From Phycisphaerales bacterium (lineage in GTDB: Bacteria; Planctomycetota; Phycisphaerae; Phycisphaerales; UBA1924), in NCBI GenBank assembly GCA_019750095.1, contig JAIEOW010000040.1, forward strand, positions 1-64,000: a stretch of 64,000 nt of DNA. The letters run 5' to 3'. The translations under genes were made by a program, and so were the position numbers. Position 1 is the stretch's first letter, and each line of letters starts with the position of its first letter. Shown piece by piece: positions 18,134-48,220 of the stretch. The notes beneath the pieces are model-generated. The model was not told where the DNA came from. It worked only from the letters and a program-made list of their open reading frames with translations, and made no database searches.

Positions 18134-18190
18134 GGCACACAGGCGGGACGCCTGTGCCACCAATGCAGACGAGGCACACAGGCAAGACGC
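18134..18190. repeat. Dispersed palindromic repeat (CAGGCGGGACGCCTG core), full copy plus partial copy
   Basis: A full copy at 18134-18162 (hairpin CACAGGC-GGGAC-GCCTGTG followed by CCACC) is followed by a partial copy at about 18172-18190. It lies in the gap between the divergent HldE-like and glycosyltransferase genes. Related copies occur at 33879, 37914, 37960 and 45041. Confidence 0.85.
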
Positions 18191-37913: not shown

Positions 37914-37985
37914 TGGTGGCACAGGCCTCTGGCCTGTGTGCCCCATCTGCATTGAAGACACACAGGCGGGACGCCTGTGCCACCA
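37914..37985. repeat. Two dispersed hairpin repeats between convergent genes
   Basis: The first copy (37914-37942) is an alternative version with stem GGCACAGGCC-TCT-GGCCTGTGTGCC. The second (37960-37985) is the standard CAGGCGGGACGCCTG form. They lie between the ends of the ABC ATPase and PAC2 genes, where either could block read-through. Confidence 0.85.
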
Positions 37986-43813: not shown

Positions 43814-43939
43814 GAGACCGGAGAGAGGGTACCCGTGCCGGTGGGAGTGATTCGGTGAGATGATGGGTTGGATTCGCGGGAGCGAGCCCTTCAATCTGTT
43901 TCCGCCGCGCATCCGGGCGTCGACCGAGACTTTGGATTT

Positions 43940-44191
43940 CAGCCCGTAGGGCTGTTCTTGAGTAGCCGGGGGTGAGCGAGGCCTTGCGAGCCACCCCCGG
44001 GAACTCGGAGAATAGATTGCTATGGCCCGTATGTTCGCACGCCGAAGGTGTGTCACGTTGATGCGACGCTTGTAGCAACGGGCACTCTTTCAGAGTGCGA
44101 AGGATCGAGATCGACACACGTTCGAGTGCGAAGAGTCCGGGGGTGTCGCTTTGCTCCACCCCCGGCTACGAGCGGGCAGCCCTTCGGGCTG
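43940..44191. repeat. Gene-less REP/REPIN-like module
   Basis: The left arm is CAGCCC-GTA-GGGCTG (43940-43954) plus a long hairpin from TAGCCGGGGGTG to CACCCCCGG (43963-44000). The right arm is CCGGGGGTG to CACCCCCGGCTAC (44137-44169) plus CAGCCC-TTC-GGGCTG (44177-44191). The two arms mirror each other around a core of about 136 bases with no gene. They are built from the same parts as the brackets of the two transposase genes at 45.8-47.4 kb. Confidence 0.85.
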
Positions 44192-44255
44192 AAGTACCGT
44201 GAAACGCATCGCCAGCAGAGTGAGTTTCGGGCCGAGCGGTCAAGGGACGCACGCG

Positions 44256-45091: not shown

Positions 45092-45658
45092 TTAGATGTC
45101 CTCGATCTCTTTGGCCTTCTTGTTCACCAGCTCGTCGGCCTCGGTCTCGTACTTCTTGAGCAGCTTCTGGATCTCTTCCTTCAGCGTCTCGATTTCATCT
45201 TCAGGAACGTGGGCCTTGGGGTCGGCCTTGAGCTGGTCGGCCAGCTTATTGGCGTCGCGCCGAGCGTTGCGAAGCGTGATCTTGGTCTCTTCGGACATCT
45301 TCTTGCAGTGGCCGACAAGCTGCTTGCGTCGATCGCCGGTGAGCGAGGGCAGGTTGACGCGGATCTGCTTGCCCTCGGGCATGGGGTTGAGCCCGAGCCC
45401 GGAGGTTTCGATGGCCTTCTTGATCGCCTGGATGCTGCTGGCGTCGAACGGCTTGATGAGGAGCTGGGCCGGCTCGGGGACGCTGATGGCGGCGATGTTC
45501 TTGAGGTCCTGCATGTCGCCGTAGTAGTCGACCTTGATGAACTCGATCAGGGCGGGCGAGGCACGGCCTGTTCGCATGCCGCGAAGCTCCTTTTTGAGGT
45601 GCTCAACGGACTTGGTCATGGCTTCTTCGGCTTCGAGGAGGATGGTGTCGGGGTCCAT
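45092..45658 (-). CDS. frr: Ribosome recycling factor
   Basis: The 188-residue protein is a full-length RRF, which with EF-G splits post-termination ribosomes. It shows MTKSVEHLKKELRGMRTGRA, VDYYGDMQDLKNIAAISVPE, IRVNLPSLTGDRRKQLVGHC, and the helical tail TLKEEIQKLLKKYETEADEL. ATG 45658 is supported by family alignment. pyrH, its usual upstream neighbour, lies 1.8 kb away on the same strand, separated by two transposase genes and hairpin repeats. frr may therefore need its own promoter, or be read through the insert. Confidence 0.96.
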   Translation of the reverse strand: MDPDTILLEAEEAMTKSVEHLKKELRGMRTGRASPALIEFIKVDYYGDMQDLKNIAAISVPEPAQLLIKPFDASSIQAIKKAIETSGLGLNPMPEGKQIRVNLPSLTGDRRKQLVGHCKKMSEETKITLRNARRDANKLADQLKADPKAHVPEDEIETLKEEIQKLLKKYETEADELVNKKAKEIEDI

Positions 45659-45790: not shown

Positions 45791-45916
45791 CTTCAGGCCG
45801 AAGGCCTGGACATTCGTAGCCGGGGCGTGGAGCGAGTCTTCGAGCGACACCCCCGGATACCGGCCCGCTTTGCCTCACATGCTGTGTGAATCCCCGCAGC
45901 CCGAAGGGCTGCTCGC
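45791..45916. repeat. REP bracket, left arm of transposase module 1
   Basis: The arm holds CAGGCC-GAA-GGCCTG (45794-45808), a long imperfect hairpin from GTAGCCGGGGCGTGGAGCG to GACACCCCCGG (45816-45856), then GCAGCCC-GAA-GGGCTGC (45896-45912). It is almost identical to the block at 46591-46716, with about seven differences and one single-base gap by eye. Confidence 0.9.
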
Positions 45917-45922
45917 TGCACC

Positions 45923-46375
45923 TTACTCCCAGATGTATCGCTCATCCCACTCGATGCCGTACTTCCGCAGAAACTCGCGAACTTCATCCCTGAAATCGAC
46001 CGCGCGGTGATGTTCCCTTTGGTGTGCGATGTACTTTCTGAGGGCATTGGCCGCGGACTCGCCGATTGAAAACGCGAAGTATCCGTCTTGCCACGCGAAC
46101 GCTTCGAGCGACTCATCGCGCAGCTTGATCCACTTGGAGGAGTCGCGTTTGACCTCGAGCATAAGGGCGGAGATGGACTGTGTTTTGCTCAGACTGATCA
46201 TCATGTGAACGTGGTCCACAGTGCCGCCCATGGCGAGCAGGGGGGAGTCCATGCTTCGGCAGATTCCGCCGATGTATGAGTAGAGGTCCGGCTCGATGGA
46301 CTCTGGGATGATCGCGATGCGGTTCTTGGTTGAGAATGTGATGTGGATAAGGAGTTTTGTGAGCGTGGACGCCAT
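45923..46375 (-). CDS. IS200/RAYT-type single-Tyr HUH transposase, copy 1
   Basis: The 150-residue protein is a Y1 (HUH) transposase. The HUH motif is HVH at 55-57 (VDHVHMMISL), and the probable nucleophile Tyr115 lies in KYIAHQREHH. Such enzymes cut single-stranded DNA at hairpins. It shares about 116 of 150 residues with copy 2 by hand alignment. It is bracketed by mirror-image REP hairpins rather than sitting in an ordinary insertion sequence with short ends, which suits the REP-associated (RAYT) class. All catalytic residues are present, so it is probably functional. Confidence 0.92.
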   Translation of the reverse strand: MASTLTKLLIHITFSTKNRIAIIPESIEPDLYSYIGGICRSMDSPLLAMGGTVDHVHMMISLSKTQSISALMLEVKRDSSKWIKLRDESLEAFAWQDGYFAFSIGESAANALRKYIAHQREHHRAVDFRDEVREFLRKYGIEWDERYIWE

Positions 46376-46729
46376 GTGGGCACGATACCGGCGGGCAGCC
46401 CTTCGGGCTGCGGATGGCGCAAGGCAGGGGTGGGAGGGCGACGTCTTCCGGGGGTGTCGCTCGAAGACTCGCTCCACGCCCCGGCTATTGGCGGGCAGCC
46501 CTTCGGGCTGTGGGTGACACATGCCAAGTGGACGTGGAGAGCCCACGTCCGTCGTTTTCTCGGTCTGTGGTTATGTTTCGCCCGGAACTTCTTCAGGCCG
46601 AAGGCCTGGACACCCGTAGCCGGGGCGTGGAGCGAGTCTTCGAGCGACACCCCCGGATACCGGCGCGCTTTGCCTCACATGCTTTGTAATCACCGCAGCC
46701 CGAGGGGCTGCTCGCTGGTATCTTGCGGC
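46376..46729. repeat. REP block between the two divergent transposase genes
   Basis: This stretch holds GCAGCCC-TTC-GGGCTGC (46395-46411), a long hairpin from CCGGGGGTG to CCCCGGCTA (46448-46487) and CAGCCC-TTC-GGGCTG (46495-46510) as the right arm of module 1. The left arm of module 2 follows: CAGGCC-GAA-GGCCTG (46594-46608), GTAGCCGGGG to CCCCCGG (46616-46656) and GCAGCCC-GAG-GGGCTGC (46695-46711). Both transposase promoters must be here. Confidence 0.9.
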
Positions 46730-47182
46730 ATGGCTTCCACGCTGACCAAGCTCCTGATTCATGTCACGTTCTCGACGAAGAACCGCGTCGCGATCATCCC
46801 GGAGGGCCTTGAGCCGGACTTGTATTCATACATTGGCGGGATCTGCCGACGCATGGAATCGCCGCTGCTTGCGATGGGTGGGACGGCCGACCACGTCCAC
46901 ATGATGGTGAGTCTCGCGAAGACGGTCCCGCTTTCGGGGCTGATGCTCGAGGTTAAACGTGATTCTTCGAAGTGGATCAAAGAGCGTGATGCCGCGATGC
47001 GGACCTTTGCGTGGCAGGATGGATACTTCGGGTTCTCGATCGGGGCATCGGGGGCCGATGGGCTCAGGGCGTACATTGCGAACCAGAAGAATCACCACAG
47101 CACGGTGGACTTCAAGGATGAAGTGCGGGAGTTCTTGAGGAAGTACGGCGTCGAGTGGGACGAGCGATATACCTGGGATTGA
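46730..47182 (+). CDS. IS200/RAYT-type single-Tyr HUH transposase, copy 2
   Basis: This 150-residue paralogue of copy 1 is read in the opposite direction. The HUH motif is HVH at 55-57 and the nucleophile is probably Tyr115 in AYIANQKNHH. It differs from copy 1 at about 34 of 150 positions, many conservative (I/V, S/A, E/D), so the pair is not a recent duplicate. ATG 46730 is in the same place relative to homologous sequence. The longer upstream frame passes through the REP block and is not coding. Confidence 0.92.
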   Translation: MASTLTKLLIHVTFSTKNRVAIIPEGLEPDLYSYIGGICRRMESPLLAMGGTADHVHMMVSLAKTVPLSGLMLEVKRDSSKWIKERDAAMRTFAWQDGYFGFSIGASGADGLRAYIANQKNHHSTVDFKDEVREFLRKYGVEWDERYTWD

Positions 47183-47190
47183 CGCGGCGG

Positions 47191-47412
47191 GCAGCCCTTC
47201 GGGCTGCGGGATCAAAAAGACACGGGTTGGTGCGTGGTGCCGGTGTCCGGGGGTGTCGCTCGCGGACTCGCTCCACGCCCCGGCTACGTGAGAGCAGCCC
47301 CTCGGGCTGCGATGCGAACAAGGCATGAGGAAGATTGGTGCCAACGAACCGGGGGTGTCGCTCGAAGACTCGCTCCACGCCCCGGCTACTGGAGGGCAGC
47401 CCTTCGGGCTGC
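47191..47412. repeat. REP bracket, right arm of transposase module 2 (double)
   Basis: GCAGCCC-TTC-GGGCTGC (47191-47207) is followed by two long hairpin units from CCGGGGGTG to CCCCGGCTAC (47247-47287 and 47349-47389). These are separated by GCAGCCC-CTC-GGGCTGC (47294-47310) and closed by GCAGCCC-TTC-GGGCTGC (47396-47412). The arm is thus a partial tandem duplication. It ends 47 bases from the pyrH stop. Confidence 0.9.
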
Positions 47413-47458: not shown

Positions 47459-48220
47459 TCACGGCGGCGTGATCATCGTCCCCAGCTTCTGCCCCTGCAT
47501 CACGCCGCGGATGTTGCCGCGTTGTTTGAAGTCGAACACCAGCACGGGGATCTTGTTTTCCTGGCACATGGCCAGGGCGGTCATGTCCATGACGCCGAGG
47601 TTCTTGGCGAGGGATTCGGCGAAGGTGAGCTTGTCGTAGCGAGTGGCGGTGGGGTCTTTCTTGGGGTCGGCGGAGTAGACGCCGTCGACTTTGGTGGCCT
47701 TGACGAGCAGCTCGCATTCCAGCTCGGTGGCGCGAAGGGCGGCGCAGGTGTCGGTGGTGCAGAAGGGGTTGCCGGTGCCGGCGACGAGGATGACGACGCG
47801 GCGTTTTTCCATGTGACGCAAAGCCCGGCCGCGGATGAAGGGCTCGGCGACGGCGCGGATGTCGACGGCGGTCATCACCCGCGAATCGACCCCGATGTGC
47901 AGCAGGGCTTCTCTCAGCGCGAGCCCGTTCATGACGGTGGCGAGCATGCCCATCTGATCGGCGACGGCTTGGTGGATGTGGGCGACTTTGGCAAAGCGAG
48001 CTCCGCGGACGAAGTTGCCTCCGCCGACGACCACGGCGAGCTCGACACCGGTTTGATACGCGTCTTTGACCTCCTCGGCGATCATGGCGAGTTCGCCGGG
48101 CTCAATGCCCATGCCGCCGGAGGCGCAGAAGGCCTCGCCAGAGAGCTTGAGCAACACCCTTCGATAGGGTGATGTGCTGGAGGCCTCGCGGCGGGGTGAA
48201 GTCATCGGGCTGGTGGGCAT
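47459..48220 (-). CDS. pyrH: Uridylate (UMP) kinase
   Basis: The 253-residue protein is a bacterial amino-acid-kinase-fold UMP kinase: RVLLKLSGEAF (Lys-Leu-Ser-Gly-Glu), LAVVVGGGNFVRGAR, QMGMLATVMNGLALREAL, VVILVAGTGNPFCTTDT, ELLVKATKVDGVYSADP and the C-terminal GNIRGVMQGQKLGTMI. It phosphorylates UMP to UDP. ATG 48220 is used; a Met six residues later is possible. The usual neighbour frr is displaced downstream by the REP/transposase block. Confidence 0.96.
   Translation of the reverse strand: MPTSPMTSPRREASSTSPYRRVLLKLSGEAFCASGGMGIEPGELAMIAEEVKDAYQTGVELAVVVGGGNFVRGARFAKVAHIHQAVADQMGMLATVMNGLALREALLHIGVDSRVMTAVDIRAVAEPFIRGRALRHMEKRRVVILVAGTGNPFCTTDTCAALRATELECELLVKATKVDGVYSADPKKDPTATRYDKLTFAESLAKNLGVMDMTALAMCQENKIPVLVFDFKQRGNIRGVMQGQKLGTMITPP

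Follow-up and report, generated by a model that had tools for sequence, protein, structure and literature searches.

Mirror-image hairpin arms around TnpA subclass 1.2 genes of a planctomycete suggest a REPtron-like unit

The window analysed here, a stretch of 64,000 nucleotides from a Phycisphaerales bacterium, carries two small Y1 transposase (tnpA) genes, each of which lies between hairpin arms that mirror one another. We propose that each module is a REPtron-like unit, in which a stationary, low-copy TnpA of subclass 1.2 would be held between its own mirror-image recognition arms, and in which paired arms would move as non-autonomous elements; this reading, along with the binding, cutting and mobility that it presumes, was given a probability of about 0.78. 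The anatomy of the unit, its dispersal, its co-occurrence with the gene and the clade-specific pairing of arms and genes were established by comparing sequences, and are described in turn.

The two modules and their transposases

Both modules lie between frr (ribosome recycling factor; 45092–45658, minus strand) and pyrH (UMP kinase; 47459–48220, minus strand), and both are arranged in the order H1, 7 nt, GTAG, B, about 40 nt, H2, gene, H2', B', CTAC or CTAT, H1'. The left arm of module 1 consists of the outer hairpin H1 (45794–45808; CAGGCC GAA GGCCTG), the GTAG foot (45816–45819) with the long hairpin B (45820–45856; foot plus hairpin 45816–45856, plus strand) and the inner hairpin H2 (45896–45912; GCAGCCC GAA GGGCTGC); tnpA copy 1 (45923–46375, minus strand) is followed by H2' (46395–46411, the mirror of H2), by B' (46448–46484) with its foot (together 46448–46488, minus strand; the foot reads CTAT on the plus and ATAG on the minus strand), and by H1' (46495–46511). 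Module 2 has H1 (46594–46608), GTAG (46616–46619) with B (46620–46656; together 46616–46656, plus strand), H2 (46695–46711), tnpA copy 2 (46730–47182, plus strand), H2' (47191–47207), B' (47247–47283) with a CTAC foot (together 47247–47287, minus strand) and H1' (47294–47310); its right arm is repeated in tandem, giving a second B' (47349–47385) with CTAC foot (together 47349–47389, minus strand) and a second H1' (47396–47412). The preliminary description of this DNA had reported Y1 transposases bracketed symmetrically by REP-like hairpins, and both genes and all of the hairpins were confirmed in the window; its three hairpins per arm were likewise recovered, with H1, B and H2 on each side of both genes. 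It had also stated that the mirrored arms keep their orientation whatever the direction of the gene, in full agreement with the alignments: the arms of the two modules match directly (left arms 94% identical in direct register, right arms 78%), whereas one gene has to be turned round to match the other (77% identity, 52% otherwise).

The pyrH–frr interval of the window is about 1.8 kb and holds both modules, compared to a gap of 20–200 bp in 17 relatives with both genes in the same orientation within the fetched stretch (the 18th, L133, had 990 bp), which points to the modules being inserted material. An empty site was not found within the genus, where the congener has other genes after pyrH (a rearrangement) and parts of its sequence read N. 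In two genomes from another family of the same order (G039, contig C28, locus L144; and G043, contig C47, locus L143) the region 1.3–1.4 kb downstream of pyrH contains a subclass 1.2 gene from another clade and is possibly a recurrent site; frr was looked for near these genes and was not found. A different dispersed short palindrome, CACAGGCGGGACGCCTGTGCCACCA, occurs in the window at 18138, 33881, 37961 and 45044, with a variant at 37920, and in locus L154 a subclass 1.2 gene has a GTGG-tagged hairpin of the same kind beside it.

Both window proteins are 150-aa Y1_Tnp proteins with DHVH, WQ and Y---Q--HH (PF01797 matched copy 1 at 92.3 bits); they are 77% identical and form sisters in the tree (98/93). 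The preliminary description likened them to RAYTs, and this part did not survive examination. The RAYT model NF047646 (REP_Tyr_transpos), which has a cut-off of 80 bits, scored the two proteins at 24.6 and 19.6, and their catalytic tyrosine was not followed by the NP(L/V)(R/K)xG motif, the window proteins having YIAHQREHH and YIANQKNHH where class 2 genes of relatives from the same order have YIHxNP instead. In a tree of 134 proteins the class 2 sequences stood separate with 100/99 support and the window genes grouped with subclasses 1.1 and 1.2; the Y1 tree that had been suggested as a check thus spoke against a class 2 RAYT placement and in favour of the IS200 side. Within that side, subclass 1.2 was monophyletic with respect to 1.1 in 31% of bootstrap trees (four 1.1 references), and the IS200 model NF033573, passed by both proteins (70.5 bits for copy 1 and 61.1 for copy 2, cut-off 55), does not separate subclass 1.1 from 1.2. 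Searched against the PDB, a profile of 31 subclass 1.2 proteins matched IS608, ISDra2 and further IS200 TnpAs with E of about 1e-16, with TnpAREP not among its matches; for an AlphaFold model (pLDDT 92), IS200-type TnpAs took ranks 1–29, IS608 and ISDra2 being best, and TnpAREP (4er8) came at rank 30. Quentin et al. (2018, PMC6006769) gave DH[IV]H, WQ and Y---Q--HH as the signature of subclass 1.2, which they described as a low-copy group that lacks REP and occurs mostly in Cyanobacteria and Bacteroidetes; the window genes share Y---Q--HH, WQ, the length of about 148 aa and the low copy number. Judged by these sequence characters, the window transposases are TnpA subclass 1.2, a group on the IS200 side, and not RAYTs. 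The remark that RAYTs are mainly gammaproteobacterial was outdated, as they are known from many phyla (PMC6006769); GTAG repeats were already reported from Planctomycetes (PMC3733652).

We considered if the modules were ordinary IS200-type insertion sequences with ends inverted by chance. The score for NF033573, the IS200 fold and the joint position of subclasses 1.1 and 1.2 in the tree would suit this explanation, which is nevertheless very unlikely: the genome has four subclass 1.2 genes, and the other three are 77, 53 and 29% identical to copy 1 and not near-identical; no tnpB was found beside the window tnpA genes; the arms are mirrored, whereas IS200/IS605 elements are without terminal inverted repeats (PMC2817692); and gene-less arm pairs are far more numerous than genes, as described below. 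The two subclass 1.2 genes outside the window (contigs C171 and C196) have different hairpin sets, likewise mirrored.

Dispersed gene-less copies and hairpins in related genomes

The window also has a gene-less element (43937–44193), absent from the preliminary description, with the same layout as the modules, H1-GTAG-B1-H2a ... H2b-B2-CTAC-H1'. Blast searches with this element revealed about 24 loci outside the tnpA modules with full or partial copies, so that the hairpins do recur elsewhere in the genome, as had been supposed; the exact 40-nt B unit was present in the window only, and the dispersal appeared with looser pattern and blast searches. Sixteen copies aligned over 230–270 bp as H1-GTAG-B1-H2a-spacer-H2b-B2-CTAC-H1', with a majority identity of 93–97% for the hairpins and feet and of 59–64% for the spacers; stem cells were 97.2% paired (43% at most in slid controls), and compensatory changes were seen as 4 pairs with both sides altered. 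The hairpins are dispersed and the genes are of low copy, divergent and mirrored at their ends, which is contrary to a picture of ordinary IS200 elements in a genome otherwise lacking the hairpins. The gene-less copies of the window genome are old (about 70–74% identical), and in them the long hairpin on the left, B1, is distinct from hairpin B of the window modules; they may therefore represent the elements of a lost sister enzyme. Mirrored hairpin pairs of the CCACGGGT type were seen on contigs C52, C77 and C193 of the window genome (G000); the clade to which this hairpin belongs in relatives is absent among the four subclass 1.2 genes, making a lost or unassembled gene likely.

Subclass 1.2 genes were found in 23 of 61 related genomes. 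When each gene's upstream flank was compared with its downstream flank in reverse complement, the mean mirror score was 42.3, against 17.5 for cross-locus comparisons (40 usable subclass 1.2 genes). With stems of at least 7 bp and a shuffle rate of 0.2% per flank, GTAG ranked top of the 256 tetranucleotides at the stem foot (32 flanks, the next independent one having 10), bar the overlapping TAGC register. GTAG hairpins, searched with two patterns, occurred in 20 of the 23 genomes with a subclass 1.2 gene and in 6 of the 38 without (P=6e-8, a value that, like those of the other Fisher tests, overstates independence because the 61 genomes are related to each other), and the co-occurrence anticipated by the preliminary description was thus borne out; these patterns were picked after seeing the arms, the foot ranking being unbiased, and reversed control patterns gave 0 hits in the related genomes. 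Neighbouring hairpins, within 300 bp, were mirrored outward-in 31 times and in the opposite way once, which together with the alignment of copies corresponds to the two inverted REPs that form the dispersed unit of a REPIN or BIME. Arm similarity had a median of 32.0 for the same gene clade across genomes versus 14.5 within the same genome (Mantel-type P=0.001); it is the gene clade, and not the genome, with which the arms go.

RAYT REPs typically have GTAG feet, and the hairpins could be the REPs of ordinary class 2 RAYTs located elsewhere, the subclass 1.2 genes having merely inserted into them, as is known for insertion sequences such as ISPpu9 (PMC8450116). Class 2 genes over the cut-off are indeed common, occurring in 35 of the 61 relatives, the window genome included. 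The hairpins, however, were associated with subclass 1.2 genes both with over-cut-off class 2 RAYTs (P=9e-5) and without them (P=0.002), and class 2 added little where subclass 1.2 was absent (P=0.18); one relative, G008, is without any class 2 match and carries 25 such hairpins, and the arms go with particular clades of subclass 1.2. Subclass 1.2 genes are a better predictor of GTAG hairpins than class 2 RAYTs are, and this second explanation is quite unlikely.

Acido-Lenti-1 and the layout in other phyla

Acido-Lenti-1 (Rfam RF01687) was described as an sRNA with function unknown (Weinberg et al. 2010, PMC2864571). Its 46-nt model corresponds to the B hairpin, CUA, a linker and the H1 hairpin. 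Above the gathering score (37), 33 matches fell within 150 bp of a subclass 1.2 gene, at 21 loci (10 of them two-sided); 32 of the 33 were mirrored around the gene, and the distance to the bracketed transposase gene was 42–67 bp in most cases, while 10 class 2 and 17 pyrH control loci gave 0 matches. Eighteen genomes were searched whole (E 0.001 or better), with up to 136 matches per genome; two of these (G073 and G074) had none, nor had any of 14 control genomes. Where neighbouring matches were no more than 300 bp from each other, they formed mirrored pairs in 26 cases against 2 otherwise, 142–160 bp apart, and the 12 pairs that were read had the order H1-YAG-B-H2-spacer-H2'-B'-H1', with the outer H1 degraded in one (L252). 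Among the 61 relatives, RF01687 was detected in 12 of the 23 with a subclass 1.2 gene and in 0 of the 38 without (P=8e-7); no association with class 2 was seen among them (P=0.21), which, with the match-free class 2 loci, is further evidence against an origin of the hairpins as class 2 REPs. The window itself matched the model at 43940–44000 with 23.3 bits, under the gathering score, and this weak match was not repeated by other copies in the window genome. On the sequence evidence, RF01687 is the B-plus-H1 arm of the subclass 1.2 system in other phyla. A tandem array of five RF01687 arms with 72-bp spacing was noted in one genome (G051, contig C2, 431997–432329). The family was discussed in 2026 as a possible regulator of adjoining KLIKK protease genes in Tannerella forsythia (PMC13298647); a mobile-element arm near these genes would be the simpler reading.

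A purely RNA-level role of the arms, whether as terminators, as stabilisers of mRNA or as the Acido-Lenti-1 sRNA, with no link to transposition is highly improbable. Rfam does list RF01687 as an sRNA, RNA copies of the hairpins would also fold and may affect adjacent transcripts, and both modules are within the pyrH–frr interval; against this, the mirrored pairs lie on opposite strands, the conserved foot is outside the stem, the arms bracket a transposase gene at a mostly narrow distance, and RF01687 was confined to gene-bearing genomes among the 61 relatives.

A scan across 84,980 species, at one genome per species, gave at least 571 confirmed relatives, of which 80 were retained and 72 were usable for comparing the layout. 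Mirrored arms scoring above the 99th percentile of cross-locus scores were found at 43 of these 72 named loci, about 40% being without clear mirroring: 18 of 28 in Planctomycetota, 10 of 17 in Verrucomicrobiota/Kiritimatiellota/Lentisphaerota, 6 of 8 in Acidobacteriota, 3 of 4 in Desulfobacterota-type, 2 of 2 in Armatimonadota, 2 of 9 in Bacteroidota/Fibrobacterota/Ignavibacteria and 2 of 4 in others. The foot in other phyla was more often another NYAG than GTAG. The mirrored layout beside subclass 1.2 genes recurs in about eight phyla, and the 2018 description of the subclass as having no REP was not upheld; the low count for Bacteroidota/Fibrobacterota/Ignavibacteria agrees with that description. 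Matches to microRNA families in loci L030 and L033 were below threshold and on simple repeats, and were rejected.

Proposed mechanism and comparison with known systems

The hairpins to which Y1 enzymes bind are folded from ssDNA, and the choice of cleavage site is guided by a tetranucleotide on their 5' side (IS608, TnpAREP; PMC8266576). If the window system works as IS608 and E. coli TnpAREP do, an arm made up of H1, a tetranucleotide foot (GTAG here, YAG generally), the long hairpin B and H2 would be bound by TnpA at the folded single-stranded B, with the foot serving as guide for choosing the cleavage site, and cutting and rejoining would proceed through the TnpA tyrosine by way of ssDNA intermediates. 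The inverted arrangement of the arms would allow both of them and the spacer to be copied or moved together as one non-autonomous element, and such mobilisation in trans would yield the dispersed gene-less elements of 200–270 bp; copy numbers in the family are modest (tens). The tnpA gene would be cargo between the arms, usually stationary, that could flip between the inverted inner hairpins, which would account for opposite gene orientations inside equally oriented arms. Two gene-less elements of one genome (L247 and L248, G065) are 100% identical over their central 27 nt after inversion, with their arms in register; we regard these inverted middles as a sign of flipping between inverted hairpins of the same kind as in the window.

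The sequence comparisons suggest that the hairpins serve as recognition marks for a family of very small mobile elements that is widespread and has been overlooked. A subclass 1.2 group with REP-like arms seems undescribed in the open literature, and the preliminary description was right to propose a candidate new REP-type class, although not a RAYT one. We think it likely that subclass 1.2 TnpA with three-hairpin mirrored arms is a further cross-phylum REP-type lineage beside the class 2 RAYTs and class 3, and that Acido-Lenti-1 is an ssDNA recognition arm rather than an RNA gene. If so, an Rfam family of unknown function would acquire a DNA-level meaning, TnpA subclass 1.2, published as having no cognate substrate, would acquire one, and REP biology would reach from class 2 RAYTs to the IS200-side branch in about eight phyla. 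With arms built from modules (a foot, a long hairpin and two hairpins at its sides) and with several pairs of gene and arm per genome, the recognition rules are directly testable.

The system shares with IS200/IS605 elements (IS608, ISDra2) the fold, the catalytic motifs and hairpin ends that are preceded on the 5' side by a tetranucleotide; it differs in that its genes have neither near-identical copies nor tnpB, and in that its arms are inverted repeats. It agrees with TnpA subclass 1.2 (PMC6006769) in size (about 150 aa), DH[IV]H, WQ, Y---Q--HH, C-terminal extension and low copy, but has mirrored arms and is found in Planctomycetota, Verrucomicrobiota, Acidobacteriota and others. Acido-Lenti-1 matches bracket subclass 1.2 genes in relatives; that family, however, is annotated as an sRNA, and the window's own arms fall under its threshold (23.3 versus 37). 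TIRtrons, with a TIRYT gene (Di Nocera et al. 2013, PMC3733652), likewise combine a Y1 transposase gene, longer inverted repeats flanking it and dispersed families, a likeness drawn by description. REPtrons with their class 2 RAYTs (REPs, BIMEs, REPINs) have in common with the window system a low-copy Y1 HUH gene with inverted GTAG hairpins around it, cognate hairpins dispersed as inverted pairs, and the presence of several systems in one genome, every one with hairpins of its own; one of the features by which a RAYT is recognised, a gene flanked by inverted, genome-dispersed GTAG hairpins, is present here. The window protein, unlike a RAYT, belongs to subclass 1.2 and not to class 2, the window-type arm consists of three hairpins, and the gene-less elements of the window type are 200–270 bp long with conserved inner hairpins.
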